NCBI GenBank assembly: GCA_026392045.1
Contig: JAPLCU010000024.1
Span: 1-42,068 of the forward strand
DNA from: Armatimonadota bacterium
Lineage (GTDB): Bacteria > Armatimonadota > UBA5829
Length of the DNA: 42,068 nucleotides
Direction: 5' to 3'
Position 1 is the stretch's first letter. Each line of letters begins with the position of its first letter. Both the position numbers and the translations under genes were made by a program. The notes under the pieces are model-generated. The model was not told where the DNA came from and did no database searches. It worked only from the letters and a program-made list of their open reading frames with translations. Of the stretch, positions 18,501 to 41,913 are shown one piece after another.

Positions 18501-20625
18501 CAGGCGCATTCTCAAAAGAAGCTACGATTGTGTGAGTAGTAGTCACCGGGTCAAACGTGTAAGAAGAGATTGGTCCCTGAGGAACGTCGTCTACCACCAC
18601 GTCAAGGATCAGTTTGTCCCAATTGGGTGTGATTGTGAATGTTGGGCTATCGCCCTCAGCAATACTCACATCGCCGCTTGGAGTGATCTTTCCGCCTGGT
18701 GCAAGCGGATCAATAGATGCGGTGATTATATGTTTTGGAGGCTCCAAAGCCGCAACTTCAGCAGCGCTCAGCGCTCTGCTATAGACCTTGAGCTTAGCGA
18801 TAGCGCCATTTAAGCGCCAATAACTGTCGTTCCATATCCTGGCCGCACCAGCAACATCCGAAGTGCTGCCAACAAGGATCTGATCACCGGCAGCAATGTC
18901 GAGGGCTATAGCGCGGCTTGTTCCGTTAATAGCGCCGTCTGTGTAAATTGTCTCATTAGCGCCATCATACGTGACTGCGACATTGTGCCACGTACTTCCG
19001 CTGGGTATGGTGCTATAGCCCCAACCCGAGCCGTTATGGTCGACTGCCTTGTTGTTGACAAAACAGAATTCAGCGGACTTGGGATTACCATTCCACCAGC
19101 CGGCCCAAGACAGATAAGCGTTGTCGCCGTCCCATGATGCCATATTGGTTTTGTAGAGTGTGGCAACGACTGTCCATGCATGGCTACCAGCTAGTTCAGC
19201 CGGGGTAACTACGGTGCTACCCAGTGTTTGACTGTCAGCATCGCTCTGAGAAAGCGGAGCGAACTGAACGCACTTCTTGCCACCGATATTGGTGACGCTC
19301 GGACCTGTGCCAACTGTCCTCTTGTCGAAGGTTCCGCCGAGGGTTCCTTTGTTAACCCAACTTGACAATGAGCCAAGCTCAAGGCTTCCTACCGCAAGAT
19401 TGATTAGACAAGTAGGATCCGGATCGTATTCAGGATCATCGCCAATTACAAAGTTCTGGTCGATTGCCGGCGGGGAAATCCCATAAGGATACCCACTTTC
19501 AGGATCAATAGGATATGTAATACCAGTTGTGACTATTTTGCCTACAGGCATATTCTTAATAGCCAGGAAATAGCCCTGGGAACCTGGGGCGGCTAAAGCC
19601 ACTGTTACACTGTATTTACCATCTATCCCAGTTGGCGCGCTGTCGGTCGGGACCAGACTATGGTTAACAAAGTCACAAGCTGTCACTATAATTCCAGCTA
19701 CAGGACCAGATTCATCAGTAATAGTGCCCTCAATAGTGCCGGTTGTCACCCTGGGAAGCTCGATGTCCACGTCAGGAACATCCGCATCTACCACTACCAC
19801 ATCGGGAACTGCTGATGTCGTTGTATAAAGAGTCTTGGAAGCCGACACGGTGTACGTGCCCGCTGGAACTACGAACGAGTAATCGCCCGTTGATCCGACA
19901 ACGACTGGGGCAGTGGCGCCCGTGCAGGTGACTGTCGTACCCGTAGGGTCTGCCAAGTCGCTCAAAGTGATTGTGCCACTGATTGTGTAACCCATGGTGC
20001 TAAACTGACAATCGTCAAAATAGCCGCCAGGATTGGGGAAGCGTGCGTTTGTCGTCAAATCGCGGCCATACAGCATGAACCGCCCGTAGTTCACTTGATC
20101 GTTCGTGGCAGTCGGGCTGTTATAGACAAAGCTGCCTTGGATCACATTCCACGCGTCAGGGGTAATGACTGCCGCCGGATTAATGACTGCCGGATCACCT
20201 ATAGCATCAGGCAGCGCCCATACGAAGGGCGCCGTCATCATAGTGAACCCTATGGCGGCTACCGCCGTAGTGCCCTCCACGATTTCACTTGCCGGCACGT
20301 AGTACAGTGCATTATAGTAGTAAGTGGCGCCATGGATCAACGTCACGCCGCTCATGTTGTTCTGTGCGGCAACATTTACATAGGTAGGGTTGCCGAAGTT
20401 GGACCAAACCCAGTCACTTGGGTTGTCTACATTCTGGAAGGGATTCGCGATCCTCCCACCCGTGCCACCCCAGAAACTCCAGGGCGGAGCTTGTGCTGGG
20501 GTGTCTCCTGCCGTCTCAAAACCGGGGTTAACGCAATAGTTCAGCTGTGTTTGCGCAAAAGCCGAGCCAGCCATCATACCCAGGCAGAGAACGAGCAGAC
20601 ACATAAATAATACTTTTCTACTCAT
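15592..20625 (-). CDS. Giant secreted mosaic protein (CBM-like, LamG, carboxypeptidase-regulatory, InlB-like, OB modules)
   Basis: The ATG at 20623-20625 is chosen over a TTG at 20646, because AAAGGA lies between them and the protein then starts with a signal peptide ending GSAFA-Q (about residue 24). The 1677 residues are extracellular beta modules: CBM-like sandwich (about 30-205), CnaB/carboxypeptidase-regulatory repeats (about 210-290, 296-395, 918-1000, 1255-1420), LamG/concanavalin-like domains (about 405-628 and 1005-1245), InlB-like B repeats (about 632-706, 840-912), a CBM6/35-like domain (about 712-835), a second 'NGGFETGDLTGW' CBM (about 1425-1592) and a terminal OB-like module (about 1605-1677). 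No catalytic domain or cell-wall sorting signal is visible. Role inferred: glycan binding or surface scaffold. It is divergent from the metallopeptidase giant at 21306. Confidence 0.8.
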   Translation of the reverse strand: MSRKVLFMCLLVLCLGMMAGSAFAQTQLNYCVNPGFETAGDTPAQAPPWSFWGGTGGRIANPFQNVDNPSDWVWSNFGNPTYVNVAAQNNMSGVTLIHGATYYYNALYYVPASEIVEGTTAVAAIGFTMMTAPFVWALPDAIGDPAVINPAAVITPDAWNVIQGSFVYNSPTATNDQVNYGRFMLYGRDLTTNARFPNPGGYFDDCQFSTMGYTISGTITLSDLADPTGTTVTCTGATAPVVVGSTGDYSFVVPAGTYTVSASKTLYTTTSAVPDVVVVDADVPDVDIELPRVTTGTIEGTITDESGPVAGIIVTACDFVNHSLVPTDSAPTGIDGKYSVTVALAAPGSQGYFLAIKNMPVGKIVTTGITYPIDPESGYPYGISPPAIDQNFVIGDDPEYDPDPTCLINLAVGSLELGSLSSWVNKGTLGGTFDKRTVGTGPSVTNIGGKKCVQFAPLSQSDADSQTLGSTVVTPAELAGSHAWTVVATLYKTNMASWDGDNAYLSWAGWWNGNPKSAEFCFVNNKAVDHNGSGWGYSTIPSGSTWHNVAVTYDGANETIYTDGAINGTSRAIALDIAAGDQILVGSTSDVAGAARIWNDSYWRLNGAIAKLKVYSRALSAAEVAALEPPKHIITASIDPLAPGGKITPSGDVSIAEGDSPTFTITPNWDKLILDVVVDDVPQGPISSYTFDPVTTTHTIVASFENAPVTATRYEAELAVLVSCSIEDDANASNGQRVSQWGYNMTEAPSVTFTVNVATQGMYEMAMGYRQPWDGNRDTYISVNGVPLGTIGAPQVADPDYGRTLKNIALKAGDNTIVLGNNIGWGPHWDYIEIPFDSNGVAWIVNASAGEGGTISPAGDVGVADGSSQEFIITPAIGYKIADVTVDTVSQGAVSSCTVTPTADATIVAYFELLDLGVVTGVVTDSVSTLGIEGAKVYFKTTANASKDADFYTTTLPDGSYSQSLPIGDWYIAAGAAGYDVSADQGVSLTTAGATADFALVANPYWDVFFCATVDQFSALADGDLTGNWTPTYVFGNPVGAMLTSMFTPRVVTVDGVKWISNNRDDTIGNDGFNLTGCPFTVQPNAGVDATGVSVVAVVQPIYNTTIGGEPRGEIVNLYYNGLSLCVDHATGEVMVARKAWDWQRTGTIIPDGQKSIVALVCQLDGSAKLYVNGAQSGWPGAALGDNYYADLTGGDGRNSWQNLIGVGRNVWDNWSSFNGNIGDVYVYKDAISDEKREALQSDLGAKFGIDIPTFVDISGKVTLEDGITPVQGALVIGGLTSPLTDENGNYTTTASANTTVYLSASKANHVTVLPIDGTYEVNVGTEDITGIDFQMSQINIVKGIVTDGTNPIYNAVVQIGVGGPAAVTDADGKYTVIGITPAADSSVYADGLGWGDNTQTIDTSAAASGTITLDDIVLTPKTETDASYIQNGGFETGDLTGWVFEGDHPETIDLGVTTADKASGSYAATWTSKTGIDYYHGYLSQTIPVVAGSTYNVYFKVKTNATDCEGQCGFDFGDWWGYDGLGTNWMYTPVPGVWEQTLNYRLWNNAGKLTAVRVAIPEGVTGIHLIMGLGTTIAGRTLYIDDVVVDRVGDVYVPPVTGPVYGANNKSVLTDGMLIGKRVKVWGKIISKDIASYVISDGYSAGVTINGTTSLPPDSIAVVTGVVLPDGSVTSD

Positions 20626-20785
20626 TTTACTTCGTTTTCCTTTCAATTCATTAGTTTACTTTGATTCGTACACTGAAACTGATTGCATAGGCTTAACGCG
20701 AATGCAACCCAAAATCGGCTTGATATCGTATGTATTACCTTCGTCTCCCTCCTTTGATTAGACTAGATATCATGCCGTAAAATCC

Positions 20786-20808
20786 AATGCAGAGTTTGCC
20801 CCTGCATT
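20786..20808 (-). other. Leader stem-loop upstream of the giant mosaic gene
   Basis: Perfect 7-bp arms AATGCAG (20786-20792) and CTGCATT (20802-20808) enclose a 9-nt loop, GGGCAAACT on the transcribed strand. If the sigma54-like element at 20819-20836 is used, transcription would start at about 20810 and this hairpin would form the very 5' end of the message. Between it and the start codon lies a strong SD-like AAAGGAGGG (near 20747-20755) with no start codon at usable distance. Confidence 0.4.
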
Positions 20809-20818
20809 CTTTGACAGT

Positions 20819-20836
20819 TTGCACATTTCGTGCCAA
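20819..20836 (-). promoter_or_regulatory. Putative sigma54 (-24/-12) promoter
   Basis: On the minus strand, TTGGCACGAAATGTGCA contains GG at -24 and GC at -12 separated by exactly 10 nt. The upstream half is a full TTGGCACG match and the downstream half is GTGCA instead of TTGCA. The leader to the ATG at 20625 would be about 185 nt. RpoN control of PEP-CTERM/exopolysaccharide genes is known in other bacteria. The same bases form a hairpin, which could equally explain the symmetry. Confidence 0.45.
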
Positions 20837-20981
20837 ACTCATCCATCCGGCCAAGGATAGTTAATCCCGCCGGTTATAGCCCAGCGTGGATTACAAGAAC
20901 CCGTGCCTCAGTGCGAACTGCCGTTTTGGTTGTTACATATAAGCTCAGATAGCTCAATTAAGTAATGCTATGAGATTATAT

Positions 20982-20997
20982 TTACAATCATTTGTAA
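20982..20997. promoter_or_regulatory. TTACAA-N4-TTGTAA palindrome, putative operator or enhancer site
   Basis: The arms TTACAA (20982-20987) and TTGTAA (20992-20997) form a dyad. It overlaps the -10 and start region of the sigma70 promoter at 20996-21024, where it could act as a repressor operator. It also lies about 160 nt upstream of the sigma54-like element, where an enhancer-binding protein would sit. No regulator is assigned. Confidence 0.45.
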
Positions 20998-21024
20998 TAT
21001 ACCTCGGGTATTGCCCTTTGTCAA
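20996..21024 (-). promoter_or_regulatory. Near-consensus sigma70 promoter for the giant mosaic gene
   Basis: On the minus strand the -35 is a perfect TTGACA (21019-21024) and the -10 is TATATT (20996-21001, 5 of 6), with exactly 17 nt between. The predicted start is near 20989, giving a long leader of about 364 nt to the ATG at 20625. This is the best consensus promoter in the window. Confidence 0.7.
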
Positions 21025-21100
21025 GACCTATTTTCAAAATATTTTTAAGGAATATTGAAACGGGGGGTTATCATGCTGCTCATGCTTCGAGAGCCTCAGC

Positions 21101-28162: not shown

Positions 28163-28195
28163 GACAAAGACCCCGATTTAATCGGGGTCTTTGTC
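28163..28195 (+). terminator. Terminator hairpin built on the CCCCGATT palindrome
   Basis: A perfect 16-bp inverted repeat with a single central T: the left arm runs 28163-28178 and the right arm 28180-28195. Its core is CCCCGATTTAATCGGGG, and AAAGA/TCTTT flank the core to give a U-rich end. It lies 33 nt after the stop of the metallopeptidase gene. The same core recurs at 28206 and 28337. Confidence 0.8.
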
Positions 28196-28247: not shown

Positions 28248-28312
28248 GTCAGAATTGTGCATAATTACACATAAATAGTTGCCTTGCTAAAAATCGAATT
28301 CTCAACCATAAT
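28248..28312 (+). promoter_or_regulatory. Shared 40-nt activator box plus promoter, copy 1
   Basis: The box spans 28248-28287: GTCAGAATTGTGCA at its left end and TTGCCTTGC at its right end, with an AT-rich centre. Its right end overlaps the -35 TTGCTA (28284-28289). Exactly 17 nt later comes the -10 CATAAT (28307-28312). The predicted start is near 28319, about 60 nt before the first ATG of the double phosphoesterase gene. Copies 2 and 3 have identical length and spacing, which argues for a regulator-binding site over a chance repeat. Confidence 0.75.
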
Positions 28313-28336
28313 AGAACTAGAGCTAAAGTGCGTGAA

Positions 28337-28353
28337 CCCCGATTTAATCGGGG
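28337..28353. repeat. CCCCGATTTAATCGGGG palindrome in the leader of the double phosphoesterase gene
   Basis: A complete copy of the palindrome (8-bp arms around a central T) in the predicted 5' leader, between the promoter (start about 28319) and the SD GGGAGG near 28370. It could form a hairpin just upstream of the ribosome binding site. Together with the copies at 28171 and 28206 it marks a locally amplified dispersed repeat. Confidence 0.7.
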
Positions 28354-28380
28354 GGCTCTAAACCGAATGGGAGGAATAAA

Positions 28381-31300
28381 ATGATAAAGATGGAGGTAGG
28401 AAAGATGATAAAGAAAGTTTTGTCAATTGCTTTGCTGCTTATTTTGGCAGCTTCGGTAAGTAGTTTTGGCGCTACCAAGGTATTAAATACAGCCACTTCC
28501 GGCACTTCGATTGATCATGTACAAGTGTGGTTGAGCGGAGGAGCGGCTTTCAATGCTGGTTCGTATGCTCCTACCCCCACTGTTTACGCCTTGGCGGCAG
28601 CAAGTACAATGAAAGTGTGGGTAACCGGGAACTCAGGGACGATGACAGGCACTTATAACTCAGCCACGGTGACTTCGTATTGGGGAACGCCGACAGTCAA
28701 TTGGCAGAACTGGATAGGCGACAAGACCAGCAATGGCATCACAACTAAAGTTGCTGTAATGGAAGCTCCGTCCTATATCCATGGGTCTCAAATCGATTAC
28801 CGGATCAATTTCGTCTCCGATCCAGGTATAGGCGCAATAGTCAATATACAATACTACAAGGATGGTGCGCTTGTAGAGGTTAGAAAATACACAAAACTTA
28901 CAGCGCCCTCATCTACCGATATACCTAACGCAACAAATGCTACCTGGACCTTGGATAAAACCCCTGCAAATCAGGGTGTCTTTAACCCTGGCTTTATAGA
29001 TAAAGACGGCAATTCTACACCTACTTACGTTGACGTGGCAAATATCGCTGCACTGAAGACCAAAGTTGGTCAGACAGTCAGACTGACAGGTACCGTTACA
29101 GTTACCTGTGTAGGCAGCGGCCGATTCTTTGTTGGTGAAGAGACATACAAGGGCTGCATCAAGGTAGTTGGCGCCGACACTGTTACATCTGGCGGTTATG
29201 TCAAAAACCTGATTGGTACCGTTGCTGTGGATGCCTACGGTCAGTATACTCTCACACTCACCGCTCCTGTGGGCGCGGCAACAAGCGGCAATGCGATCAA
29301 GACTGTTGGTGTCAGTAACAAATCTGCTAAGACCGATGCTAAGCTTCAGACCAACCTTGTGAAGGTTTGGGGATTAGTTGGCGCTGGCGCTGATTATACA
29401 ATAAATGACGGATACAATGATCCGATAACAGTCAAGAAAGGCGTCGCAACCGAGCCGGTTGGCGTTGCTGCCATCAGGGGTGTTCTGTGGAAAGAAGCCG
29501 GAGCTGCGGTTCTCTATCAGAATTACACGCCTGCTCCAATACCCATATTTACCATAACGGCATCAGCCGGGGCTGGTGGAACGATCACCCCGTCCGGCGC
29601 GGTCGTGGTGAACCAAGGCGCCAACCAGACATTCACCATCGCTGCCGGCTCAGGTTACACCATTGCAGATGTGTTCGTCGATAGCGTTTCTCAAGGAGCA
29701 ATTGCAAGCTACACTTTCACCAATGTGACCGCTGATCACACCATCTCGGCGACGTTTGCTGCGTCTCCTACCTATACGATAACGGCATCAGCCGGAGCTG
29801 GCGGAACGATCACCCCGTCCGGCGCAGTCGTGGTGAACCAGGGCTCCAACAAGAGCTTCACCATCGCTGCCAGCCCAGGTTACAACATTACAGATGTGGT
29901 CGTCGACAGCGTTTCTCAGGGAGCAATCGCAAGCTATACATTCACTAATGTAACCGCCAATCACACCATCTCAGCGACGTTTGCTGTGTCTCCTACCCAT
30001 ACGATAACGGCAACAGCCGGGACTGGTGGAACGATAACCCCGTCTGGCGCGGTCGTGGTGAACCATGGCTCCAACCAGGCTTTTGCCATCGCTGCCGGCT
30101 CAGGTTACACCATTGCCAACGTGGTTGTCGATAGCGTTTCTCAAGGAGCAATCGCAAGCTACACGTTCAGCAATGTGATCATTGACCACACCATCTCGGC
30201 AACGTTCAATTCTACCAGCGGTCCAACACCTATTGCCTGCTACGAGTTCGAGAACAACGTCCTTGACACCCAGGGCGCATTCAATGGGACTGCATTCGGC
30301 ACTCCCACATACACGACCGGAAAAGTCGGGTTAAAGGCAATCCAGTTCAACGGCTCGACCCAGTATGTATCCATCGCAAGGCCGATCTCTGACGACTGGA
30401 CCATCTCCTTCTTCGTGAAAACCAACCAGACCAGCCCGACAGGGACCCAGTGGTATAACGGCAATGGATTGGTCGATGGCGAAGTGGGTGGGGCTGCGAA
30501 TGACTTCGGCGTCACGTATCTAAATGGCAAGGTGGCTTTCGGCGTGGGCAGCCCCGACACGACGATCCAGTCCACCTCGCCGATCAATACCGGCGGCTGG
30601 ATGCATGTGGCCTGCACACGCAACAGCGCTAATGGACAGATGAAGGTGTACATTAATGGAGGTTTGCAGACAACGGGAACCGGTCCTACCGGGGCAAGGG
30701 CTGCGCCTGCTAATCTACACTTCGGAAACCTGCAGACTACCATCAACTACTTCAGCGGCACAATCGACCAGTTGAAGATCTACAATACCGTCTTGAACAC
30801 CACGGACATTGTGGCCCTGGTGGCGGAGGGCGGCAATACTACTTGGTGGACCATCACAGCAACCGGCGGAATTGGTGGAACGCTCAGCCCGAGCGGAAAT
30901 GTGGCAGTGGCCCAGGGCGATAACCAGACATTCACGATCACACCGGGCGCAAACTATAGCATTGAAAGCGTGATCGTTGACGGTGTCCCTATGGGAACAA
31001 TCCCCAGCTACACGTTCTCCAATGTGAGCGCTAACCATACTATTTCGGTTACGTTCGAGGGGGTGGGCTTGTTCGGCGTCATTACCGGCCCTTATCTGCA
31101 GGCGATAACTCCTAACAGCGCCTACGTGTTGGTGGAAACGAACGCCACCGATCCCGTGACTATCGAGTGGGGCGAAGATGACAGATACGGCTTGATGTCT
31201 TACACGGAAAGCTATGAGCCAACTGACTCCGTGCCGACGACGTATGTTCATAATGTCAAGATACCCGGTCTTCAGGCCAACAGATTGTATCACTATTGCG

Positions 31301-34300
31301 TAAATGTTGCCGGCACCCTGGGCGCCGATCACACGTTCAAAACCGCTGTCAACCCCGGAACCCCCTATAGGTTCGCGATGACCTCCGATTTCAAAGGTGG
31401 AACAACGGTGCACGATGCTGTTTCATCACTGATCCAGGCCGCTAATCCGATGTTCTCGCTCTATGCAGGAGACCTCTCCAATACCGGCGTCTCTGACACT
31501 CTCAGGAGAGAGTTCTTCCGTGCTCCTGAACTTGCTTTGGATGCCAACGTGCCGTTCTTCAACTCTATTGGAAACCATGAAGGCTGGGGCGTCAGCGCTA
31601 AGGCGTTTACCCAGGCTCCTGCCTCAACTTCTGGAACCCAGGCTTACTACTCATTCGATTGGGGTGATGTTCACTTCGTATGCGTCAACAACTATTCTGA
31701 CGGCTATGGCGTGGGAAGCACCCAATACAATTGGGTCGCCGCCGATCTGGCAGCTTCCAACAAGCCCTGGAAGATCGTCTGGTGCCACAATCCTGCGTAT
31801 ACTTCTACGATAGAAGGCCACGGTGGAGATAATAACATGGTTGCAATGTCCGTAAACCTGTTCGTGCCAAACCATGTGGATATGGTGCTGAATGGTCACA
31901 ACCACTTCTATCAGCACAGCCTGGTGGATGGCATTCATCACATGATAGTAGGCTCCGCCGGCGCTGCCCTGTATACCCCTACTGACGGACCAAATACGGT
32001 ATTGTCTGCAAAGAGCTACTGCTATGCCATATTCAATGTAACCGCCACGACGCTCAACTATGTTGCCTATAACGATTCCGGCAACGTGCTGGAGACGATA
32101 AACCTGACCAAGCAGTTTACAATTGCAGGCAAGGTGAGCAATTCCGGCGGAACGGGGATTTACAATGCTGTAGTAACTGCAGGTGGGCCGTATTCCAATG
32201 TCGCTCCTGTGGTCACGGATTCTTCCGGCAACTACTCGCTTACGCTTCCCGGCCCGGGAACTTATGAACTCTATGCTGATGGTTCCGGCTACAACGCCAA
32301 CTTCAGCAATGTTAGCGTTCCCACATCAGGAACAGTTACCAGCAATCTAACATTAACGTCCGCTGCCGAGGCAGGCGTATATAACGGCAGCTTCGAGACA
32401 GCAGCCGGCAGTCTGCCGGATGGCTGGGAAACTTTTATTGAAAAGCCCACTGACGGCCTTGATTACTATGGCAACGCATGGCCTGATAAGCCTGGTATGT
32501 ATAACTTCAGCCGGTCAACTGCGGGCAATACCACTCCCGGCGGAACGGCTTCGGCGCTCCTTGGAACCGCAACCGGCGGCGCTCTGACGGACTATGGGAT
32601 TCTCCGCTGGGAGAGGTTCAGGGTATCGGGGGATGCTTGCACGGGTATTACCGAGACAACATTGGTCGATACGGCCAGAGCGTGGACCACCAACTACTGG
32701 TACGCAGGTGGAACAGGCTACGTTCAGATAGTCCATGGCGGCAATGACTCAGGCGCGGTCCCGACTATGGCGGGCGACTTCAAAGTATTATCCAACGATG
32801 CTACCACGCTTACAGTGGCGGCGGGAAGCAACCTGGCGACTTTGGGATATGCGGCGGGCGACCATTACAGGTTCGTGACGGAAGTCCGCAACTATTGGTA
32901 TACCGGAGGAATCAGGACCACTGCGGCTAGAAGAATACCCGTGGACCGAACGAAGGTCTATAACTTCTATCTGAAGCAAAAAACCACCTATTCCGGCTCA
33001 GAAAGCGAGAAGTGTCACCTTTGTGCCCTAATTTGGCGTGATTCGCTGGGTGTCGAGGTTGGGCGCTCCGAGTGGAGATGGCAGCCGTCCACTACGTTCA
33101 CTCAAAGCGCTCCAAGGCTGTTTCTTGCGCCTCCGATGGGAGCCGCAACTGTAGAGGTATGCGTCTATACGAGGTGTACGGATAATGCTAACAAGAACTG
33201 GGTCGATACAAGCTACATAGATGACGTGGTGATCGACCCGGTTCCCGTGACCGCTACCAGCAGCATCCAGTCGCTGGCTGACGGCACGCACGTGGTGGTA
33301 CCCGGTGATTTCACAAGTCTGGCTCCGAGAGACATCTCCGGAGAGCGATACACCAATTACTACTATGTCTCCGAGCCTGACGGCTCCGCGGGCATAAGAA
33401 TCCAAAACGCAGCGCCCAAGATGGACAATCTGAACGTGAATGAGATGGTTGCCGTGAGCGGCGCTGTTAGGTCAATCGCCTCGACTGGAGAGAAGTATAT
33501 CCAGGCGAATGTCACCGGCACTTCAGTGGTCGGGGGCGGCGCCACGCCGTCGACCATGACTGTCGCGTCCGTGCTGACTGATCCTAACGCGATGGGCAAG
33601 TTCGTCTCGATCACCGCTCAGATCAGCTCCATAGCCTCGGATGTCAGCTCGTTCAACATCACCGACGCCGGCAGCACCATCAAGGTGAACTCCGTGGGCT
33701 TCCCGCTGCTTGCCAGTTTTGCCAGTGTGGGCAATACCATCAAGGTCAACGGGGTGGTGAGCAAAGAAGGCTCGACCCGAGTGATCCTGATGATGAACTA
33801 CACGAAGCAGACCACGGCTTGGCCCGATAACGACGTCACCTGGTTCTCCATCTCGGATACACACTACGGCAGCGGCTGGGCTACACGACTGCTGCATAAA
33901 GAGAGAATAGCTGCGATGAACGCTTTGCCCGGCACGGCTTATCCGAGCGGCATCGCGGGAACGGTTGGAGAGTGTCGCGGCGTCACGGTAAGTGGCGACA
34001 TAACCGACAACGACAACGATAAGGCCGCGCAATTCGCCGAGTTCGCCATGGACTTTGGGCTGAGTGGTCAGAACCAGCTCCGTTATCCCGCTTACGAGGG
34101 GACGGGAAACCATGACGGCGGTCTCACTTTTGCCACCGCCGAGGGGATCATAAGGCGCAATCCAATCCGACCTAATGTCATCGGCATAGGCGGTGACGGA
34201 TGGGACTACTCCTGGGATTGGGGCAAGGTACACTGCATCGGGAGCAATGAGATCGGCTCCTACCTGAGAAGGGAAAGCCTGGACTGGATAGCGGCGGATC

Positions 34301-34632
34301 TAGCAGCCAACGTCGGAACGAGCGGTCGCCCAGTGGTGATAATCGCGCACGAAGGCTTTGACAGCTTCAGCTTCGCGTTCTCATCCAGAGGAGAGGCCAA
34401 GCGTCTGTATGACGTTATCAAGAACTACAACGTTATAGCTATTATCTGGGGACATACCGGCGGCTACGCTCAGTATAAGTGGGGCGGCATTGATGTGTTC
34501 GGTGTTGACGGCCCGATGGAGTGGTTCCACGTGTTCCATGTCACCCCGACTGAGCTGATTGTCACACGCAGACAGTGGTCAACTAATAATTGGAATTCAT
34601 GGACGTTCAGAAAGAATATCACAGGAATGTAA
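28381..34632 (+). CDS. Giant secreted protein with two metallophosphoesterase domains
   Basis: There are two plausible starts: ATG 28381 (SD GGGAGG) and ATG 28405 (SD GGAGG). The second gives the cleaner signal peptide (MIKKVLSIALLLILAASVSS). Numbering from 28381, the 2083 residues hold OB-like modules (about 215-390), three near-identical 75-residue InlB-like repeats (about 391-610), LamG (about 620-815), a fourth InlB-like repeat (about 823-895), and a purple-acid-phosphatase-like FN3 plus phosphoesterase (about 902-1240: GD about 1030, GNHE about 1064, GHNH about 1172; the first motif is SDFK, lacking His). Next come a carboxypeptidase-regulatory repeat, a CBM-like domain (about 1332-1620), an OB pair (about 1625-1810) and a second phosphoesterase (about 1819-2083: DTH, GD, GNHD, AHEG, then GHTG where GHxH is usual). 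Extracellular phosphate-ester hydrolysis is inferred. Confidence 0.85.
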   Translation: MIKMEVGKMIKKVLSIALLLILAASVSSFGATKVLNTATSGTSIDHVQVWLSGGAAFNAGSYAPTPTVYALAAASTMKVWVTGNSGTMTGTYNSATVTSYWGTPTVNWQNWIGDKTSNGITTKVAVMEAPSYIHGSQIDYRINFVSDPGIGAIVNIQYYKDGALVEVRKYTKLTAPSSTDIPNATNATWTLDKTPANQGVFNPGFIDKDGNSTPTYVDVANIAALKTKVGQTVRLTGTVTVTCVGSGRFFVGEETYKGCIKVVGADTVTSGGYVKNLIGTVAVDAYGQYTLTLTAPVGAATSGNAIKTVGVSNKSAKTDAKLQTNLVKVWGLVGAGADYTINDGYNDPITVKKGVATEPVGVAAIRGVLWKEAGAAVLYQNYTPAPIPIFTITASAGAGGTITPSGAVVVNQGANQTFTIAAGSGYTIADVFVDSVSQGAIASYTFTNVTADHTISATFAASPTYTITASAGAGGTITPSGAVVVNQGSNKSFTIAASPGYNITDVVVDSVSQGAIASYTFTNVTANHTISATFAVSPTHTITATAGTGGTITPSGAVVVNHGSNQAFAIAAGSGYTIANVVVDSVSQGAIASYTFSNVIIDHTISATFNSTSGPTPIACYEFENNVLDTQGAFNGTAFGTPTYTTGKVGLKAIQFNGSTQYVSIARPISDDWTISFFVKTNQTSPTGTQWYNGNGLVDGEVGGAANDFGVTYLNGKVAFGVGSPDTTIQSTSPINTGGWMHVACTRNSANGQMKVYINGGLQTTGTGPTGARAAPANLHFGNLQTTINYFSGTIDQLKIYNTVLNTTDIVALVAEGGNTTWWTITATGGIGGTLSPSGNVAVAQGDNQTFTITPGANYSIESVIVDGVPMGTIPSYTFSNVSANHTISVTFEGVGLFGVITGPYLQAITPNSAYVLVETNATDPVTIEWGEDDRYGLMSYTESYEPTDSVPTTYVHNVKIPGLQANRLYHYCVNVAGTLGADHTFKTAVNPGTPYRFAMTSDFKGGTTVHDAVSSLIQAANPMFSLYAGDLSNTGVSDTLRREFFRAPELALDANVPFFNSIGNHEGWGVSAKAFTQAPASTSGTQAYYSFDWGDVHFVCVNNYSDGYGVGSTQYNWVAADLAASNKPWKIVWCHNPAYTSTIEGHGGDNNMVAMSVNLFVPNHVDMVLNGHNHFYQHSLVDGIHHMIVGSAGAALYTPTDGPNTVLSAKSYCYAIFNVTATTLNYVAYNDSGNVLETINLTKQFTIAGKVSNSGGTGIYNAVVTAGGPYSNVAPVVTDSSGNYSLTLPGPGTYELYADGSGYNANFSNVSVPTSGTVTSNLTLTSAAEAGVYNGSFETAAGSLPDGWETFIEKPTDGLDYYGNAWPDKPGMYNFSRSTAGNTTPGGTASALLGTATGGALTDYGILRWERFRVSGDACTGITETTLVDTARAWTTNYWYAGGTGYVQIVHGGNDSGAVPTMAGDFKVLSNDATTLTVAAGSNLATLGYAAGDHYRFVTEVRNYWYTGGIRTTAARRIPVDRTKVYNFYLKQKTTYSGSESEKCHLCALIWRDSLGVEVGRSEWRWQPSTTFTQSAPRLFLAPPMGAATVEVCVYTRCTDNANKNWVDTSYIDDVVIDPVPVTATSSIQSLADGTHVVVPGDFTSLAPRDISGERYTNYYYVSEPDGSAGIRIQNAAPKMDNLNVNEMVAVSGAVRSIASTGEKYIQANVTGTSVVGGGATPSTMTVASVLTDPNAMGKFVSITAQISSIASDVSSFNITDAGSTIKVNSVGFPLLASFASVGNTIKVNGVVSKEGSTRVILMMNYTKQTTAWPDNDVTWFSISDTHYGSGWATRLLHKERIAAMNALPGTAYPSGIAGTVGECRGVTVSGDITDNDNDKAAQFAEFAMDFGLSGQNQLRYPAYEGTGNHDGGLTFATAEGIIRRNPIRPNVIGIGGDGWDYSWDWGKVHCIGSNEIGSYLRRESLDWIAADLAANVGTSGRPVVIIAHEGFDSFSFAFSSRGEAKRLYDVIKNYNVIAIIWGHTGGYAQYKWGGIDVFGVDGPMEWFHVFHVTPTELIVTRRQWSTNNWNSWTFRKNITGM
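29551..30225 (+). repeat. Three tandem 225-bp repeats encoding InlB-like modules
   Basis: Units begin at 29551, 29776 and 30001, so the period is exactly 225 bp (75 codons). Nucleotide identity is very high, for example GGAACGATCACCCCGTCCGG in the first two units and a close variant in the third. A diverged fourth copy starts near 30850 after an intervening LamG domain. High DNA identity indicates recent in-frame duplication and a hot spot for copy-number change. Confidence 0.85.
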
Positions 34633-34647
34633 TCGCACAGCATAAGA

Positions 34648-34686
34648 GCCTTTGGGACGGTTTCTGCCGCCCCAGAGGCATTTTTT
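34648..34686 (+). terminator. Rho-independent terminator after the double phosphoesterase gene
   Basis: GCCTTTGGG (34648-34656) pairs with CCCAGAGGC (34671-34679) including one G-T wobble, and CGG/CCG extend the stem inside after a mismatch around a 6-nt loop. The run TTTTTT follows at 34681-34686. It ends the message 16 nt beyond the stop codon and isolates the PEP-CTERM gene behind it. Confidence 0.85.
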
Positions 34687-34712
34687 GTCTACCCGAAACA
34701 GCTAAAGATTAG

Positions 34713-34777
34713 GTCAGAATTGTGCATGAATATGTATGAATTGTTGCCTTGCCAAGCAAACAGAAGCATGTTATCCT
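34713..34777 (+). promoter_or_regulatory. Shared 40-nt activator box plus promoter, copy 2
   Basis: The box spans 34713-34752, with the same GTCAGAATTGTGCA and TTGCCTTGC ends as copy 1. The -35 TTGCCA (34749-34754) is 17 nt from the -10 TATCCT (34772-34777). Predicted start near 34784 gives a leader of about 97 nt to the PEP-CTERM ATG. A 7-bp inverted pair TGACTGG (34793-34799) and CCAGTCA (34845-34851) could fold that leader. Confidence 0.75.
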
Positions 34778-34880
34778 ACAATTAGGACAAAATGACTGGC
34801 GATAGATAAGCCATTGAGTTTGTAGAAATGGGCATATTCTCAGACCAGTCAGATTAAATCCAACACTGGGAGGTAGAAAG

Positions 34881-35864
34881 ATGGTTAGAAAGAGTTTGAT
34901 TTTAGTAATTGTTTTGAGCGCTGCAATGATGCTTGCAGCCGGGTCGGCGTTTGCCTATTCATCGGCAGATTTGCTGTTCTCCGTGAAGACCAGCGATCTC
35001 GGGGATAGCGACAGCGCTATCTCTACTTGGGGGACGACGCCAGTGTTTACCGCAGTGAATGCCACTGCAGCAGTTACCAGCCCTAAGGCTCCCACAGTAG
35101 CAACACTAGCTGCTACTGTCGGTACGGGTAGCATAAAATGGGCAAAAACCGCTTATGCTGCTTTGGGCGGCACCACTCCCCCTGGCAACACAACAATCTC
35201 AAACAGCACCAGCGGCTTTACCGGCCCGCTCAATACCGGCATTGCCCATACCGGTTTCACCGTTGTTATGGCTGTAAGACCCGAACTTAACACCCTTGGA
35301 AGCAATGACTTCCGTAGTTTGGTGAACATTTACGCCAACGGGATGGGGCTGTTTATAAAAGACAACGGCGCGGTCTCTCTAAGGCTACAGACAACACAAC
35401 CCACCACCACTGCAAATGGCGCATCCACTACATATGGCGGAGTTGGCGCGCTAGCGAACAACACGCCGGTAGTAATGAGCATGGTTGTTAACGCTGATGG
35501 ATCTCACGATGTGTGGGCAGGCTCGACATGGCTCTTTGGTAGAACAACAGCCGTCGTTGGTTGGGATAACGCGATGCTGCTACCTAGTGTTAAAACACTG
35601 CCCCAGCCTTATACGCTAAGCAACAGAACTAGCATTGGTCTTGGAAGCGCTGGCGGCACTGCTCAGGCCGGGACTTCTGCATTTAGGGGCTACCTTGGCG
35701 ACTCGTATGTCTACACGACAGCGCTTACAAATGCAGAGCGCCTGGCGTTGGTTTCAGACGTTGAGATCAGCATGGGTATGGTAGCCATTCCGGAGCCCAG
35801 CAGCATTCTTGCTCTTTTGATGGGGCTTGGTTCTATCGCTGGTTTGAGAAGACGAAAACGATAG
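34881..35864 (+). CDS. PEP-CTERM sorted LamG-type protein
   Basis: SD GGGAGGTAG precedes ATG 34881. The 327-residue protein has an N-terminal signal peptide (about 1-25, ending GSAFA-Y), a single LamG/concanavalin-like domain (about 60-300) with the usual end 'GYLGDSYVYTTALTNAERLALVSDVEI', and a PEP-CTERM tail at about 303-327: 'IPEPSS', a hydrophobic segment and the basic end 'RRRKR'. PEP-CTERM proteins are processed by exosortase and often go to the outer surface or exopolysaccharide matrix (family knowledge). No exosortase gene lies in this window, so it must be elsewhere. Its own terminator and box-type promoter make it a single-gene unit, co-regulated in sequence with the two phosphoesterase giants. 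Confidence 0.88.
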   Translation: MVRKSLILVIVLSAAMMLAAGSAFAYSSADLLFSVKTSDLGDSDSAISTWGTTPVFTAVNATAAVTSPKAPTVATLAATVGTGSIKWAKTAYAALGGTTPPGNTTISNSTSGFTGPLNTGIAHTGFTVVMAVRPELNTLGSNDFRSLVNIYANGMGLFIKDNGAVSLRLQTTQPTTTANGASTTYGGVGALANNTPVVMSMVVNADGSHDVWAGSTWLFGRTTAVVGWDNAMLLPSVKTLPQPYTLSNRTSIGLGSAGGTAQAGTSAFRGYLGDSYVYTTALTNAERLALVSDVEISMGMVAIPEPSSILALLMGLGSIAGLRRRKR

Positions 35865-35882
35865 AATAACAAGATTTTGCTT

Positions 35883-35924
35883 TACCGCGGGGCGCAATGT
35901 CGTTGCATCTCGCGGTATTTTTTT
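35883..35924 (+). terminator. Rho-independent terminator after the PEP-CTERM gene
   Basis: TACCGCG (35883-35889) pairs with CGCGGTA (35911-35917), with an inner GCAA/TTGC stem. Seven T residues follow at 35918-35924. It lies 18 nt after the stop codon. Confidence 0.85.
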
Positions 35925-35967
35925 GATGTTAACCTATTGTGTCAAATCTTGGTGTATACTAAATGAG

Positions 35968-35990
35968 CCATCCTGAGGTTCTCGAAGGAC
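35968..35990. repeat. Imperfect palindromic repeat remnant upstream of the AraC-type gene
   Basis: CCATCCTGAGGTTCTCGAAG followed by GAC is an imperfect dyad (TCCTGAG against CTCGAAGGA). Similar CATCCTGAG...TCGAAGGA strings are common dispersed intergenic repeats in many environmental bacteria (general knowledge). Only one copy is visible here. Confidence 0.35.
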
Positions 35991-35996
35991 GAAATA

Positions 35997-36005
35997 TGGT
36001 ATAAT
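35997..36005 (+). promoter_or_regulatory. Extended -10 promoter for the AraC-type gene
   Basis: TGGTATAAT (35997-36005) is a perfect TGnTATAAT extended -10. There is no recognisable -35, as expected for this type. The predicted start near 36012 gives a leader of about 40 nt to ATG 36053. The 40-nt box is absent here, although ATTGTG and GCC in 35950-35970 resemble parts of it weakly. Confidence 0.55.
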
Positions 36006-36052
36006 GCATACAGTCTTAGCTCTACATAACATATATCATAGCTGTCATTAAC

Positions 36053-36886
36053 ATGTCTGATCACAATCTGTTAAACATTCCTCTGCATATTCCTACATCA
36101 GCAAGAGATGCGGCGTTAGTCACATCTGTAAATGCGTTCGTGCGCCACAACTTGCCCGACATGAGACATCGGCTGATATTCGTTAGAGAAGGCATTCTTC
36201 ATGTGCAGATTGCTCAAACCACCTACGCTCTGACCCAGGATCAAGTATTGATAATCAAAGCCAGCAATGCTTTTGTGAGAACTCATCCTGCAGACTCCCT
36301 GCTGCGCTACTACGCGCTGCGATTTTCCATTGATGATTCGCTGATATCTCGTGGTTTAGGGCTGGACATTCCCATCATGACAACGCTGGCAAGGCCTGAT
36401 CTGGTAGAAAAACTCTTCCTTATGCTGCTTGACGAACAAAGTGATGGTCTTGTCCAAGATCGATTTGCACAAATGTTGTTTGTGCAGATACTATCTGAGG
36501 TGGCCGATGGCGAACTGCGAAAGGCTGCGGCGCCCACGTGCTGCGTGCCTCTAGTGGAACACGCCAAGGCACACATACGTGCTCACTATGACAGGCAGAT
36601 CAGCACAACCACAGTAGCCAAATCGATTGATTGCAGCCCTGGCTATCTATCTCGAGCATTCCATGCATCAACCGGCGGCACGCTAACAGACTTCATCCAT
36701 GAAGTTCGGATGTTTCGGGCTCGGCTGCTTCTGACCGAGACAAACAAGCCTATCACACAGATCGCTCACGAATGTGGATTTGAAAACCCCAGCTATTTCC
36801 AACGGCTGTTCAATAAATATGAAGGTATGCCCCCCGGATCTTACAGAAAACAGCACTCGCGTATATACACCATAACCATCGAATAG
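36053..36886 (+). CDS. AraC-family transcriptional regulator
   Basis: The 277-residue protein has an N-terminal cupin-like sensor domain (about 20-110, containing 'LIFVREGILHVQIAQTTYALTQDQVLIIKAS') and a C-terminal AraC DNA-binding domain with two helix-turn-helix units. The first runs from about 180 ('TTVAKSIDCSPGYLSRAFH') and the second from about 230 ('PITQIAHECGFENPSYFQRL', then 'FNKYEGMPPGSYRK'). Members usually activate nearby promoters by binding direct repeats next to the -35, often in response to a sugar. No clear SD is visible before the ATG. It sits between the PEP-CTERM gene and the second phosphoesterase giant, amid three promoters with a common 40-nt box, so it is the obvious candidate regulator of that box (inference). 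Its own promoter lacks the box. Confidence 0.9.
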   Translation: MSDHNLLNIPLHIPTSARDAALVTSVNAFVRHNLPDMRHRLIFVREGILHVQIAQTTYALTQDQVLIIKASNAFVRTHPADSLLRYYALRFSIDDSLISRGLGLDIPIMTTLARPDLVEKLFLMLLDEQSDGLVQDRFAQMLFVQILSEVADGELRKAAAPTCCVPLVEHAKAHIRAHYDRQISTTTVAKSIDCSPGYLSRAFHASTGGTLTDFIHEVRMFRARLLLTETNKPITQIAHECGFENPSYFQRLFNKYEGMPPGSYRKQHSRIYTITIE

Positions 36887-36906
36887 TAGCATCACTCTCT
36901 TGGCAT

Positions 36907-36971
36907 GTCAGAATTGTGCAGGAAATACCCATAATCCTTGCCTTGCATACTCTGTTTTTTTGAGCCATAAT
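36907..36971 (+). promoter_or_regulatory. Shared 40-nt activator box plus promoter, copy 3
   Basis: The box spans 36907-36946, again GTCAGAATTGTGCA to TTGCCTTGC over exactly 40 nt. The -35 TTGCAT (36943-36948) and -10 CATAAT (36966-36971) are 17 nt apart. Predicted start near 36978 is about 25 nt before ATG 37003. Because the -10 covers an upstream ATG at 36970, that ATG cannot be the start codon if this promoter is right. Confidence 0.75.
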
Positions 36972-37002
36972 GAGAGTATATGGAAGAGGAGGTCTCACCC
37001 AA

Positions 37003-40000
37003 ATGAGAAGATTTACAACCAGCTTGCTGGTATTATTGCTCACAACCATTATTGCAGGGAGCGCACATGCGGCTTTAGTAATGGAACTACGCCCACAGGA
37101 CTATAATGGCACGCAGTGGCCGATCTATCAAGGCTCGCTGAAGGATGCCGATGTATCCAAGGCCTACTTTGCGCCAAATGGCACGCCCAAACTCACACCC
37201 AGCGTCGCCGGAACTCGCTATTCCGGCGTGGCGATGAACAACATGGTCTGGAACCAGTGTCTGGGCTTTGGAGGCCCGGTCGCCCCAGCCACTATCACCG
37301 GCGACAACCCGAGAACTATCGAGGTATGGTCATTCAATCCTGCCCTTTCCGGCGAAGAGACTCTGGTGGAGCTGAGCCATAACGGCGGGACCACAGGCCA
37401 GAACTTCGCGCTCGAAAACGGCGGCAACTGGGCTCTGAAAGGCAGCGGAACGGGCGATGTAACTGACTGGGTCTCCTCGAACAGAACAAACCGATGGGTG
37501 CACCTGGTCGTAACATACTCCGCTGGCGCAGCTAAGTTCTATGTCGATGGGGTCAACACTGTCACGAAGAATACCACTTACAATATCTTTGCGGGCGACT
37601 CTATTGCGATAGGCGCTCAGCGTTCAAGCGCTACCACAACATCCAACAGCATCTCTAATCTCAACGTCGCTGTTTATGTAGGCTATATCGGCAACGTGAG
37701 AGTATATGATAACGCGCTGACCGGGGCTGAAGTGAGCAGCCGGTTTGCTCTTGGTGTAAATGGCGGCGAATCGCTCGCTACCGTCTATACTGTTTCCGGC
37801 CAGGTCAACAATGGCTCAACCGGCATCGCCGGGGCTCTTGTATATTTCAGCGCATCCACGAATGCCTCATTGAGCCCGACTTATGTGGCGACGACAGATG
37901 CGAGCGGCAATTATTCTCAGGTTTTGCCTGCGGGCCAATGGTACATTGCTGCGGCAAAAGGGCGATACACTCCTAACCCAACAGCAGACACATCCCTCCT
38001 CTTGAGCGCTAATACATCTGGCGTGAATTTCTCACTTACATACATAACGACGCCGACAAAGCTCATAGACATGGACGGGGCACAGCTCGTGGGCAACGAC
38101 AACGACTTAATATCTACCTGGACAAACTCAGGCACGCTCGGAGGTACGTTTGCGCTTGATGGAACAGACCAGACAACGCGGCCCGTTCTGGCAACCGCCA
38201 TCGGCAAGCGCTGCATTCAATTCGACGGCGTCAACGATAGGCTCAAGCTTTTCAACGGAGCCACCCCCATTAATGCTCCATCGGGGCTTACAGGCAACAG
38301 CGACTGGACCGTATGCGGGTGGTATCTCAATCCATCGCTTAGCCAGACAGAATGCGTTTTTGGCTGGGCAAGCAGCGGCAATAAAGAGGGCGCCAGATGC
38401 GGCTTTATGTATGGCAGCCACAACGGCGATGGCGCGGTCATGCACGGCGCCGGCCCTTGGCTCAACGCCAATATGGCAATGATACCTCTTCCTACGACCG
38501 GTCTATGGCACCATATCACGGTGTCTTTCGATGGAACCGTCGAAAAAGTGTATGTGGATGGTGCGATCAATCAGACAGAGATTAAGAATCTTAGAATAGG
38601 AGCAGCCGAGCCATTCTCAATGGGCACATGGTTTGGCACTACCTCGGGCGGATCGCCCGGCACCTGGTACAGCGGCTCAATCGCTTCTCTCACGGTATAT
38701 GACCAGGTGCTGACTGATGCGGAGATCCTTGCTCTCGGTTTCCAGCAGATCTACACCATCTCTGGAACAGTAAAAGATAATAGCAATCAGCCAATAATGA
38801 GCGCAATGGTCTATTTCAAGGCTTCTACGAGCGCCAGTGTTGATCCAATGCTGGTTGGCACAACCGATGCGAGCGGCAATTACACGCAGCAGATTCCGCC
38901 AGGTAATTGGTATGTGTCGGTGATGAAGAGCCGATACACGCCCAATCCCGCGCCTGATATCCTGGCAGTTGTCACCACGGCGAATGTTACCGGCAAGAAC
39001 TTTACACTAACGCCGGATGCTGCGCCTCATAAGCTTATTGATTTGGATGCGAGCAGCCTTTCGACAGGTTCGCTTGCGTCGTGGACAAATACAGGGTCAC
39101 TTGGCGGAAACTTCGCTCAGGATGGCGCTGACCCCACAACCAACCCGACGGTTGCAACCGTCGCCGGTAAGAAAGCCGTGACATTCGATGGCAGCAATGA
39201 CAGGCTAAAGGCTTCATTCACCGCTCCGGCTGGTTTGACAAGCGGCAGCGACTGGACCGTATCGGCCAGCGTTTACAATCCTGCGATCGCAACCGAAGAA
39301 GCCTACCTCTGCTGGGCTCAGCGCGTCACGGCTTCCAAAGCGGCTGAATTTGGCTACGGGTCGTTGTATTCCGCTTACCATGTCACAAATAACATGGCAT
39401 GGGCTACCGTTCCTACCGCAGCATCGTGGCATCACGTAGCGGTAACTTACGACGGCTCAATCGAAAAAACTTACGTTGACGGAACCCTGAGCGTGCAGTC
39501 GAGCGCGAGGTATCTCAATATATGGGCGGGACAGCCTGCATTTGTCGGTGTGGCCTTCGATAACGCTTCTGGAACTACCAAGTCTCAGTGGTTCAGCGGC
39601 TCAATGGCAGCCCTGCAAGTCTATGACGAGGCTCTGACGGAATCAGAAGTTCGCGACATAGCAACGGTCACCATCTCCGGCAAAGTGACAGGACCAACGG
39701 GTTATGCGCTGCCGGGTGCAATCATAGGCTTTAAGAGCGCCTCTAAGACGACCGTTGGACTTGCCATAAGCGCAGCATCAGACGCTGACATCTACATTCT
39801 TGCTGACGGAGCTGGCAATTACAGCCTGCCGGTGTTGCAAGGCAACAGCTACTACATAGCAGCATGGAAAGACGGTTATACGCCCAGTGATGATATCGCA
39901 GTTATGGCTGATGTGTCGAAGTCTGTTATCATCCCCATCACAGATGAAGCTGGGGTCAATCTTGCTATGGGCAAAACCAAAGAAACCGGGAAACTATACG

Positions 40001-41913
40001 CCAGCCCTACGGGACTTGGCACAAATAGCGTCAACCTTGGTTTCGATGGCAATACTACCACCTATTTCGCTTGGACGACCTCTTCTCAGAAAGACTTAGT
40101 AATAGATGTCAGCAAGTCAGATAGCGCTGCTGATAGCATCAACGGCGTTACCCTGATCACGAGCACCCTGCGCATATATGATTGGGAGCTTTGGGTTGAA
40201 GACAACGCTGCGCCCATTGTTGCAAACACGAGAAATACCAGCGCGAACTGGACCAAGGTTTACCAGTCCATTGGCTCCTATGGCGGCTACGATAGGACTG
40301 CTTCCAACGGCCAGGTTGTGGACCCGGTCAGGATTGCGCCAACAAGCGCAAGAGGAGTTTGGCTGAAGATTATTTCCCCTTCCACCGAAGTCCGCCCGCT
40401 TGAGGTTATGGTGCATTCGAGCGGCGGCCCGGTGTCTATTGGCAGTTGCAAGACGCTGGAAGACGGTAGCTACATTGTTCTGAGCGGCAAGTCTGTGACA
40501 TTGGCTCCAAGAGACGGCGAAGGCATCCGCACCACAGACTACTTCTATATGGAGGACCTGGGGCGGACTTCAGCAATCCGTGTTAAAGACCCGACCGGTT
40601 ATCCTGACGCGCTCAAAGTGAATGACATGGTTTCAATCGCAGGCACGATGGCGACAGATTCAGTTACGGGCGAGCGCTACATCAACGCTGTGATAGTTCC
40701 TTCGGGCAGCGCGGGCACGGGCTTGGAGCCTTACGCAATGACAACCAAGACTGTGCAGACCGACAATAACGTGGTCGGGCAGTATGTCACAGTTGCGGGC
40801 AAGGTAAAGCAAGTTGCCGCTGATGGCACATGGTTCAATATTTCCGATGGCTTCAGCACCGAAGGAACCAAAATAAATGTTAAGGGCATACAGCTGCCGG
40901 CGAACCTTGCTTCTGTGAATGATATGATGATGGTCACTGGTGTAGTTAGCAAAGAGCAGACAGCCAATGGCATCCGCAGTGTGATTCTGCTGTTCAATTA
41001 CAGCAAATCAACCACATATTCCACCAGCGAGGTTACTTTCTTCACCACTTCAGACCTCCACTACGGCGTTTCGGGTACTGTTGCTGGTGCAGACCGAGGG
41101 ACAGTGGACATGATGAACGCGCTTCCTGGAACCGCTTATCCTACTGCATTAGGCGGGTTCGTGCAGACCCCGCGAGGTGTTGTTGAAATCGGTGACATTG
41201 CCGAAAGCGGAACAGCAGCTCAGTTTAACATGTTCGCTCTTGACTATGGGGTGAATGGTGAGGCAAGACTGCGCTATCCCGTCTACGAAGGCCTGGGGAA
41301 TCACGATGGCAGAGTTACAGGCGCCGTAGCGCCATTGATCAAAGCTCGGACTCTATTGAGACGTAATCTCACGGCGGTCTCATCCAATGGCATGCATTAC
41401 TCGTGGGATTGGGGCGGCGTACACTTTGTCCACTGCAACTTGTCTCCGACCGATGTCAATGAGACCACCTTCGTGGGGGACTTGAACTACGCGCTTGCGT
41501 TCCTGCAACAGGACTTGACTGCGAACGTGGGCAACAGCGGCAAACCGGTTGTCATCTTCCAGCACTTCGGCTTTGACGGTTTTAGCGCCGGTTGGTGGAG
41601 TGATAATGAACGGGCCAACTACTATAATGTTATCAAAAACTATAACATGATCGCAATCGCCCACGGTCACACACATGCAGCCGGAACCTACAAATGGAAC
41701 GGAATCGATGTATATCAAGACGGTGCAGGTCAGCGTGATCCGGATCCGGGAGAATGCTTCGTGTTCCGTGTCAGACAAAATCAATTGGCCGTTGCCCAGA
41801 GAATCTTCAACACAACCTCTCGAACGTGGGGATGGGGCACGACTTGGACAAAATCCATTACAATGCCGTCCCCAACTCAGGGCCAGCCCGGAAACCCGGC
41901 AATGCTTCCGTAA
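37003..41913 (+). CDS. Giant secreted LamG/F5-8-type C/OB metallophosphoesterase
   Basis: The start is ATG 37003, with AGAGGAGGTC upstream and a signal peptide (MRRFTTSLLVLLLTTIIAGS, then AHA). An earlier ATG at 36970 falls inside the promoter. The 1636 residues contain three LamG domains (about 25-250, 350-580, 675-885), carboxypeptidase-regulatory repeats between them (about 260-345, 583-670, 888-985), an F5/8 type C-like domain (about 985-1140, 'NLGFDGNTTTYFAWTT'), an OB pair (about 1145-1335) and a C-terminal calcineurin-like phosphoesterase (about 1343-1610). The phosphoesterase has DLH, GDIAE, GNHDG, FQHFG and GHTH, the full metal-ligand set. It is a close paralogue of the last 450 residues of the 28381-34632 protein, sharing 'MNALPGTAYP', 'YEG.GNHDG' and 'YSWDWG'. 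Extracellular phosphomonoester or diester hydrolysis inferred; substrate unknown. Confidence 0.87.
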   Translation: MRRFTTSLLVLLLTTIIAGSAHAALVMELRPQDYNGTQWPIYQGSLKDADVSKAYFAPNGTPKLTPSVAGTRYSGVAMNNMVWNQCLGFGGPVAPATITGDNPRTIEVWSFNPALSGEETLVELSHNGGTTGQNFALENGGNWALKGSGTGDVTDWVSSNRTNRWVHLVVTYSAGAAKFYVDGVNTVTKNTTYNIFAGDSIAIGAQRSSATTTSNSISNLNVAVYVGYIGNVRVYDNALTGAEVSSRFALGVNGGESLATVYTVSGQVNNGSTGIAGALVYFSASTNASLSPTYVATTDASGNYSQVLPAGQWYIAAAKGRYTPNPTADTSLLLSANTSGVNFSLTYITTPTKLIDMDGAQLVGNDNDLISTWTNSGTLGGTFALDGTDQTTRPVLATAIGKRCIQFDGVNDRLKLFNGATPINAPSGLTGNSDWTVCGWYLNPSLSQTECVFGWASSGNKEGARCGFMYGSHNGDGAVMHGAGPWLNANMAMIPLPTTGLWHHITVSFDGTVEKVYVDGAINQTEIKNLRIGAAEPFSMGTWFGTTSGGSPGTWYSGSIASLTVYDQVLTDAEILALGFQQIYTISGTVKDNSNQPIMSAMVYFKASTSASVDPMLVGTTDASGNYTQQIPPGNWYVSVMKSRYTPNPAPDILAVVTTANVTGKNFTLTPDAAPHKLIDLDASSLSTGSLASWTNTGSLGGNFAQDGADPTTNPTVATVAGKKAVTFDGSNDRLKASFTAPAGLTSGSDWTVSASVYNPAIATEEAYLCWAQRVTASKAAEFGYGSLYSAYHVTNNMAWATVPTAASWHHVAVTYDGSIEKTYVDGTLSVQSSARYLNIWAGQPAFVGVAFDNASGTTKSQWFSGSMAALQVYDEALTESEVRDIATVTISGKVTGPTGYALPGAIIGFKSASKTTVGLAISAASDADIYILADGAGNYSLPVLQGNSYYIAAWKDGYTPSDDIAVMADVSKSVIIPITDEAGVNLAMGKTKETGKLYASPTGLGTNSVNLGFDGNTTTYFAWTTSSQKDLVIDVSKSDSAADSINGVTLITSTLRIYDWELWVEDNAAPIVANTRNTSANWTKVYQSIGSYGGYDRTASNGQVVDPVRIAPTSARGVWLKIISPSTEVRPLEVMVHSSGGPVSIGSCKTLEDGSYIVLSGKSVTLAPRDGEGIRTTDYFYMEDLGRTSAIRVKDPTGYPDALKVNDMVSIAGTMATDSVTGERYINAVIVPSGSAGTGLEPYAMTTKTVQTDNNVVGQYVTVAGKVKQVAADGTWFNISDGFSTEGTKINVKGIQLPANLASVNDMMMVTGVVSKEQTANGIRSVILLFNYSKSTTYSTSEVTFFTTSDLHYGVSGTVAGADRGTVDMMNALPGTAYPTALGGFVQTPRGVVEIGDIAESGTAAQFNMFALDYGVNGEARLRYPVYEGLGNHDGRVTGAVAPLIKARTLLRRNLTAVSSNGMHYSWDWGGVHFVHCNLSPTDVNETTFVGDLNYALAFLQQDLTANVGNSGKPVVIFQHFGFDGFSAGWWSDNERANYYNVIKNYNMIAIAHGHTHAAGTYKWNGIDVYQDGAGQRDPDPGECFVFRVRQNQLAVAQRIFNTTSRTWGWGTTWTKSITMPSPTQGQPGNPAMLP

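Follow-up and report, generated by a model that had tools for sequence, protein, structure and literature searches.

What the 40-nt block repeated in front of three genes of this locus does, and which protein would bind it, are the questions addressed here. The window, that is, the whole stretch of 42,068 nucleotides analysed, comprises all of contig C101 in a genome of 3.55 Mb and 206 contigs. The three genes headed by the block are predicted to encode very large or surface-directed secreted proteins. A sequence-only reading of the window had proposed that the block is a protein-binding site defining a hidden regulon around an AraC-type gene.

A conserved box upstream of three genes

The gapped box GTCAGAATTGTGCA-N17-TTGCCTTGC (40 nt) was recovered exactly, on the forward strand, by the window scan at the three positions given in that reading, 28248..28287 (box 1), 34713..34752 (box 2) and 36907..36946 (box 3). 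No other copy with up to three mismatches is present in the window, and none of 100 window shuffles contained one. In the 3.55 Mb genome, the 14-mer and gapped-box scans gave no further strict copies, and no full box within 3 mismatches was found elsewhere. Among the 291 genomes of the phylum that were scanned, the 290 others gave one stray 3-mismatch match to the full box.

The 14-mer GTCAGAATTGTGCA has a single one-mismatch match in its own genome, on C103, inside an apparent Lon-type coding region. The other genome matches with one or two mismatches are mostly intragenic, and only the one at C27:30056 lies in promoter register. A scan of public genome contigs with CAGAATTGTGCA-N17-TTGC returned 69 matches, one per contig and in unrelated taxa, which is uninformative because about 120 chance matches are expected for 16 fixed bases in 257 Gb.

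The ends of the box are identical in every pair (14/14 on the left and 9/9 on the right, 23/23 together), while the N17 centre agrees at 10/17, 5/17 and 6/17 positions and the spacer between -35 and -10 at 4/20, 8/20 and 2/20. Since the ends have stayed identical while centre and spacer diverged, selection appears to act on the ends, which is the protein-site pattern that had been claimed. Inverted repeats of 6 bp are absent from the boxes. Judged by its conservation, the box is very probably a real promoter operator, predicted to be bound by a protein.

A dispersed short repeat or a chance recurrence is barely credible as an explanation. Dispersed palindromes are indeed present in the genome, and two lie close to box 1, but the box is missing from the shuffles and occurs just three times, each time immediately ahead of a gene and in the same register, so that its position and spacing refute this idea. 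The palindrome in question, YCCCGATTTAATCGGGR, was found at about 60 genomic sites but not once in the reversed control, and is thus a dispersed palindromic element. Its copies at 28171-28187 and 28337-28353 flank box 1, the second lying within the predicted 5' leader of the downstream gene.

Promoters and transcription units

Each box leads into a sigma-70-type promoter on the forward strand: TTGCTA-17-CATAAT at 28284..28312, TTGCCA-17-TATCCT with a TG preceding the -10 at 34749..34777, and TTGCAT-17-CATAAT at 36943..36971. The TTGC-type -35 followed after 17 nt by a -10, as described earlier, is therefore present at all three. The boxes end inside the weak -35 (TTGCnn), which their proximal part overlaps, and the 17-nt spacer is kept in 3/3. 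With the -10 set at -12 to -7, the box extends from about -71 to -32, and the part of it that is invariant on the left occupies -71 to -58. This predicted placement beside a weak -35 supports a class-II activator register.

The same promoters bear on control by sigma-54 with an enhancer site, as in proteobacterial PEP-CTERM genes (RpoN / PrsK-PrsR). The second of the three genes encodes a PEP-CTERM protein, and in Aquincola the PEP-CTERM gene pepA depends on RpoN (PMC9850573). However, the -24 GG / -12 GC element matches at best 6-7/11 positions near the boxes (7/11 being the best near any box), and a clear sigma-70-type -10 stands at fixed spacing. Sigma-54 control was rejected on these grounds and is extremely improbable.

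A terminator-like hairpin at 34660..34679 (forward strand) separates the first target gene from box 2, which therefore probably begins a transcription unit of its own. The start of box 3 lies 20 nt past the stop codon of the AraC-type gene and, with the hairpin, this makes the boxes look like separate transcription-unit starts.

Target genes

The domain scans agree with the targets proposed before, two phosphoesterase giants with a PEP-CTERM protein between them. Target 1 (28381..34632, forward strand) encodes a secreted protein of 2083 aa that combines LamG and InlB-like repeats with two calcineurin-like phosphoesterase regions; a good Shine-Dalgarno accompanies an alternative start at 28405. 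Its InlB-type repeat copies at 29550-30206 are in tandem and share 86-88% DNA identity. Target 2 (34881..35864, forward strand) encodes the PEP-CTERM protein, of 327 aa. Target 3 is a secreted LamG / phosphoesterase giant on the same strand, listed as an open reading frame at 36970-41913. That start is doubtful because it overlaps the gene's own -10, and the true start is probably the ATG at 37003, behind GAGGAGG, which would place the gene at 37003..41913. Targets 1 and 3 are related as paralogues (41% over 479 aa), and target 2 has no evident paralogue relation to either.

According to the domain scans, the PSD1, PSCyt2, DUF1501 and PEP-CTERM gene families are present, and by these families the bacterium would probably be a planctomycete. 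The end of the contig (41679-42068) carries short repeats and overlaps the start of C45 over 282 bp at 97% identity; therefore C45, with SecA first, probably follows, and the last bases of the window may be an assembly artefact.

Possible half-sites within the box

TTG-containing half-sites about 24 nt apart had been suggested. That repeat does exist, but the best one has a period of 21 bp, with 20/33 combined self-matches, the top value among offsets 11-30. By column shuffling, its p value is 0.005 at 21 bp and 0.015 at 20-22 bp, and becomes marginal when all offsets are counted. The repeat is strong only in box 2, where GTCAGAATTGT (34713) and GTATGAATTGT (34734) stand 21 bp apart and agree at 9/11 positions; the values for boxes 1 and 3 are 5/11 and 6/11.

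The candidate regulator

The AraC-type gene reported amid the targets is borne out. The forward-strand gene at 36053..36886, between the boxes, encodes a 277-aa AraC-family regulator with a C-terminal double helix-turn-helix (PF12833, 82 bits against a cut-off of 33.6; PF00165, 55 bits against 26.6). The N-terminal ExsA_N match reaches 20.6 bits, below the cut-off of 27. Among the window proteins scanned, no other one carries a regulator-type domain.

Genome-wide there are two AraC-family proteins, this one and the product of L244:1427-2413 on the minus strand of contig C2, which are 29% identical to each other. The second AraC gene lies directly upstream of a member of the secreted-giant family, in the same orientation. 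The region before that giant, downstream of the second AraC gene, gives a 15/23 match to the box in promoter register, which is a hint only.

Because the family has only two members in the genome, one of which is encoded between the boxes, and because the geometry matches AraC/XylS sites, the AraC candidate is favoured. The box is thus reasonably likely to be the operator of an AraC/XylS-family activator, the 36053-36886 protein being the foremost candidate binder. Several findings count against the AraC reading: the 21-bp repeat is clear in 1/3 boxes, the box is absent upstream of the AraC gene itself, and most paralogues of the targets are without it.

A real activator site used by another regulator is a distinctly weaker possibility, though one to be kept in mind; this could be a response regulator or other factor from elsewhere in the genome, or else the AraC protein of C2. 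Nothing ties the 36053-36886 protein directly to the site, target sites occur on other contigs as well, and the AraC gene has no autoregulatory box. Direct repeats whose half-sites are spaced by about two turns are a feature of response-regulator sites as well. On the other hand, the window proteins scanned gave no second regulator domain, the AraC family is limited to the two proteins named, and the three strict boxes cluster around the 36053 gene and nowhere else.

Extent of the set in the genome

A sequence model built from the three boxes found two more sites in the genome, C27:23341 (E 0.004) and C27:30055 (E 0.28). In each, CATAAT stands 17 nt past a TTGCCA or TTGACG -35, and the genes that follow encode secreted LamG / carboxypeptidase-regulatory / CBM proteins. 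One of the C27 proteins is a clear paralogue of the window giant at 15592-20646 (minus strand), with which both C27 loci share upstream DNA. A wider model that included the paralogue promoters added C132 and C200, which are further paralogues; it also drifted to generic TTGACA/TATATT promoters with A-tracts, and matches below 20 bits were set aside. The left element matches at 11/14 positions at each C27 site (C27a and C27b), 10/14 at C200:38365, and 7/14 both at C132 and on the minus strand of the window. Generic promoters of the same genome reach at most 7/14, and a match of at least 11/14 is rare by chance: fewer than 3e-4 of random window positions reach it, and most of those are the true boxes. 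C27a, C27b and C200 have the same -35/17/-10 arrangement, before paralogous secreted giants.

The minus-strand promoter of the window (20991..21065, TTGACA-17-TATATT), before the giant at 15592-20646, is a degenerate relative and a paralogue of the C27, C132 and C200 promoters. The two promoters with the poorest left elements carry TTGACA and TATATT, which would be expected if the activator is dispensable there, in a sample that is small and non-independent.

Besides their promoter, five paralogous genes for secreted giants have a long 5' leader in common, e.g. GATTGTAAAGTATAATCTCATAGCATT...GGCAGTTTGTAACTGA, with 74-77% DNA identity where compared. The loci are 20650-21065 in the window (minus strand), L109:8343-8730 and 15056-15270, L179:7533 and L180:8366. 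The sharing would reflect either a recent duplication or a functional leader. The C27 paralogue of the giant at 15592-20646 is split into two overlapping frames (L109:8722-9846 and 9774-14906), which may be due to a frameshift, an assembly error or recoding.

Another idea is that no dedicated regulator exists and that the boxes are left over from promoter duplication, having been retained as strong core promoters with an UP-element-like A/T-rich region and a -35. This is consistent with the paralogy of targets 1 and 3, with the A-tract AAAAATATTTTGAAAATA and TTGACA carried by the window-minus, C132 and C200 promoters, and with the many generic promoters of the genome that look alike. However, boxes 1-3 vary in their A/T-rich centre and keep the 14-mer at -71 to -58 unchanged, their -35 is weak, no evident paralogy connects target 2 with the two giants, and the flanks and spacers of the three boxes are dissimilar. 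By inspection, the A-tract AAAWWTWTTTTNNAAA is found in the window-minus, C132 and C200 promoters and not in boxes 1-3, for which an UP-element promoter was rejected. Relics of this kind are accordingly an improbable source of the boxes. Many promoters of the genome combine TTGACA/TATATT with an A-tract similar to AAAAATATTTTGAAAATA further upstream, in the manner of the E. coli UP element, among them L181:7392, L184:6244, L186:690, L186:847 and L191:6500.

Returning to the operator reading, the hidden regulon claimed at the outset is weakened. Strict copies number only three, all in the window, but weaker sites precede paralogous LamG/CBM giants, and the genome scan gave sites at the same promoter spacing on C27 (twice) and C200. 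The expectation that PEP-CTERM and phosphoesterase genes generally would carry the site did not hold. About 25 PEP-CTERM genes pass the cut-off in the genome, and searches of 1.5 kb on each side of the motif and with the strict genome-wide pattern placed no box near any but 34881; the phosphoesterase paralogues on C129 and C88 also lack it. Since most PEP-CTERM and phosphoesterase genes are without the box, the set is small and local and not a general surface-protein regulon.

Relatives in other genomes

No box was found in the fourteen family members searched, and the three-box model gave only chance-level matches on 40 relatives. An AraC orthologue in a similar neighbourhood was not found among the relatives, the nearest being 34% identical and located beside flagellar genes. 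The nearest AraC relatives elsewhere adjoin flagellar, glycoside-type or metabolic genes and not giants, with neighbours judged by eye. Because no relative has the box or a comparable AraC orthologue, site and regulator are not linkable by co-variation.

Comparison with known systems

A close parallel is the AraC/XylS-type activator MtlR at PmtlE of Pseudomonas fluorescens, whose site spans at least 37 bp ahead of the -35, with a strong distal and a weak proximal half-site and an A-tract between them (PMC4514859). Its blocks lie at -72 to -58 and -50 to -36, the weak downstream half-site is required for regulation, and the distance from site to -35 equals that of the XylS and MekR sites (PMC4514859). 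Nevertheless, the MtlR half-site is AGTGC-N5-AGTAT..., and MtlR serves sugar-alcohol metabolism, not secreted giants. XylS uses two direct repeats, of 15 bp, upstream of the regulated promoter Pm, where the sites of XylS and RNA polymerase overlap (PMC5481539 and references therein). However, the TGCA-N6-GGTA motif is not repeated in the boxes, and XylS acts in aromatic catabolism with different sigma factors.

Among regulators of surface structures, the 36053-36886 protein aligns over its full length with Rns and CsvR, AraC-family activators of surface pili (phmmer, E about 1e-7), but the similarity is low, the site is different, and no pilus genes are present at this locus. TIGR04094, the YSIRK-adjacent regulator, is also an AraC-type regulator encoded beside a surface protein gene; here, the 36053-36886 protein scores 48.4 bits against a cut-off of 200, and with the HTH part only. 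The YSIRK-targeted antigen models did not match the targets. PrsK-PrsR / RpoN shares the regulation of a PEP-CTERM gene, but this locus has no sigma-54 promoter and no PrsR-type gene was found among the window proteins scanned.

Proposed mechanism

In the proposed mechanism, two AraC monomers (or a dimer) would bind in tandem from about -71 to -36. The strong distal half-site would be GTCAGAATTGTGCA, at -71 to -58, and the weak proximal one would lie about 21 bp downstream and end against the -35. From there, the bound activator would bring in sigma-70-type RNA polymerase where the promoter has only a poor -35 (TTGCnn). The circuit would thereby turn on the three nearby genes for secreted or surface proteins, and probably also two or three of the paralogous giants on other contigs. 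We infer binding by the 36053-36886 protein, activation rather than repression, and the signal. The mechanism is of a known kind, ordinary bacterial activation; the novelty lies in the site, in the candidate pairing and in the targets. An open-access literature search found no work on AraC control of giant LamG or PEP-CTERM genes.

Little has been described of how this group controls its very large secreted LamG and PEP-CTERM proteins. It can be suggested tentatively, at somewhat less than even likelihood, that a local AraC activator controls scattered LamG/phosphoesterase giants and one PEP-CTERM protein, which would be a sigma-70/AraC alternative to RpoN/PrsK-PrsR; both AraC genes lie beside giants, hinting at recurring regulator-giant units. 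The gain is a concrete, testable operator, together with a candidate for its regulator and a few listed targets.
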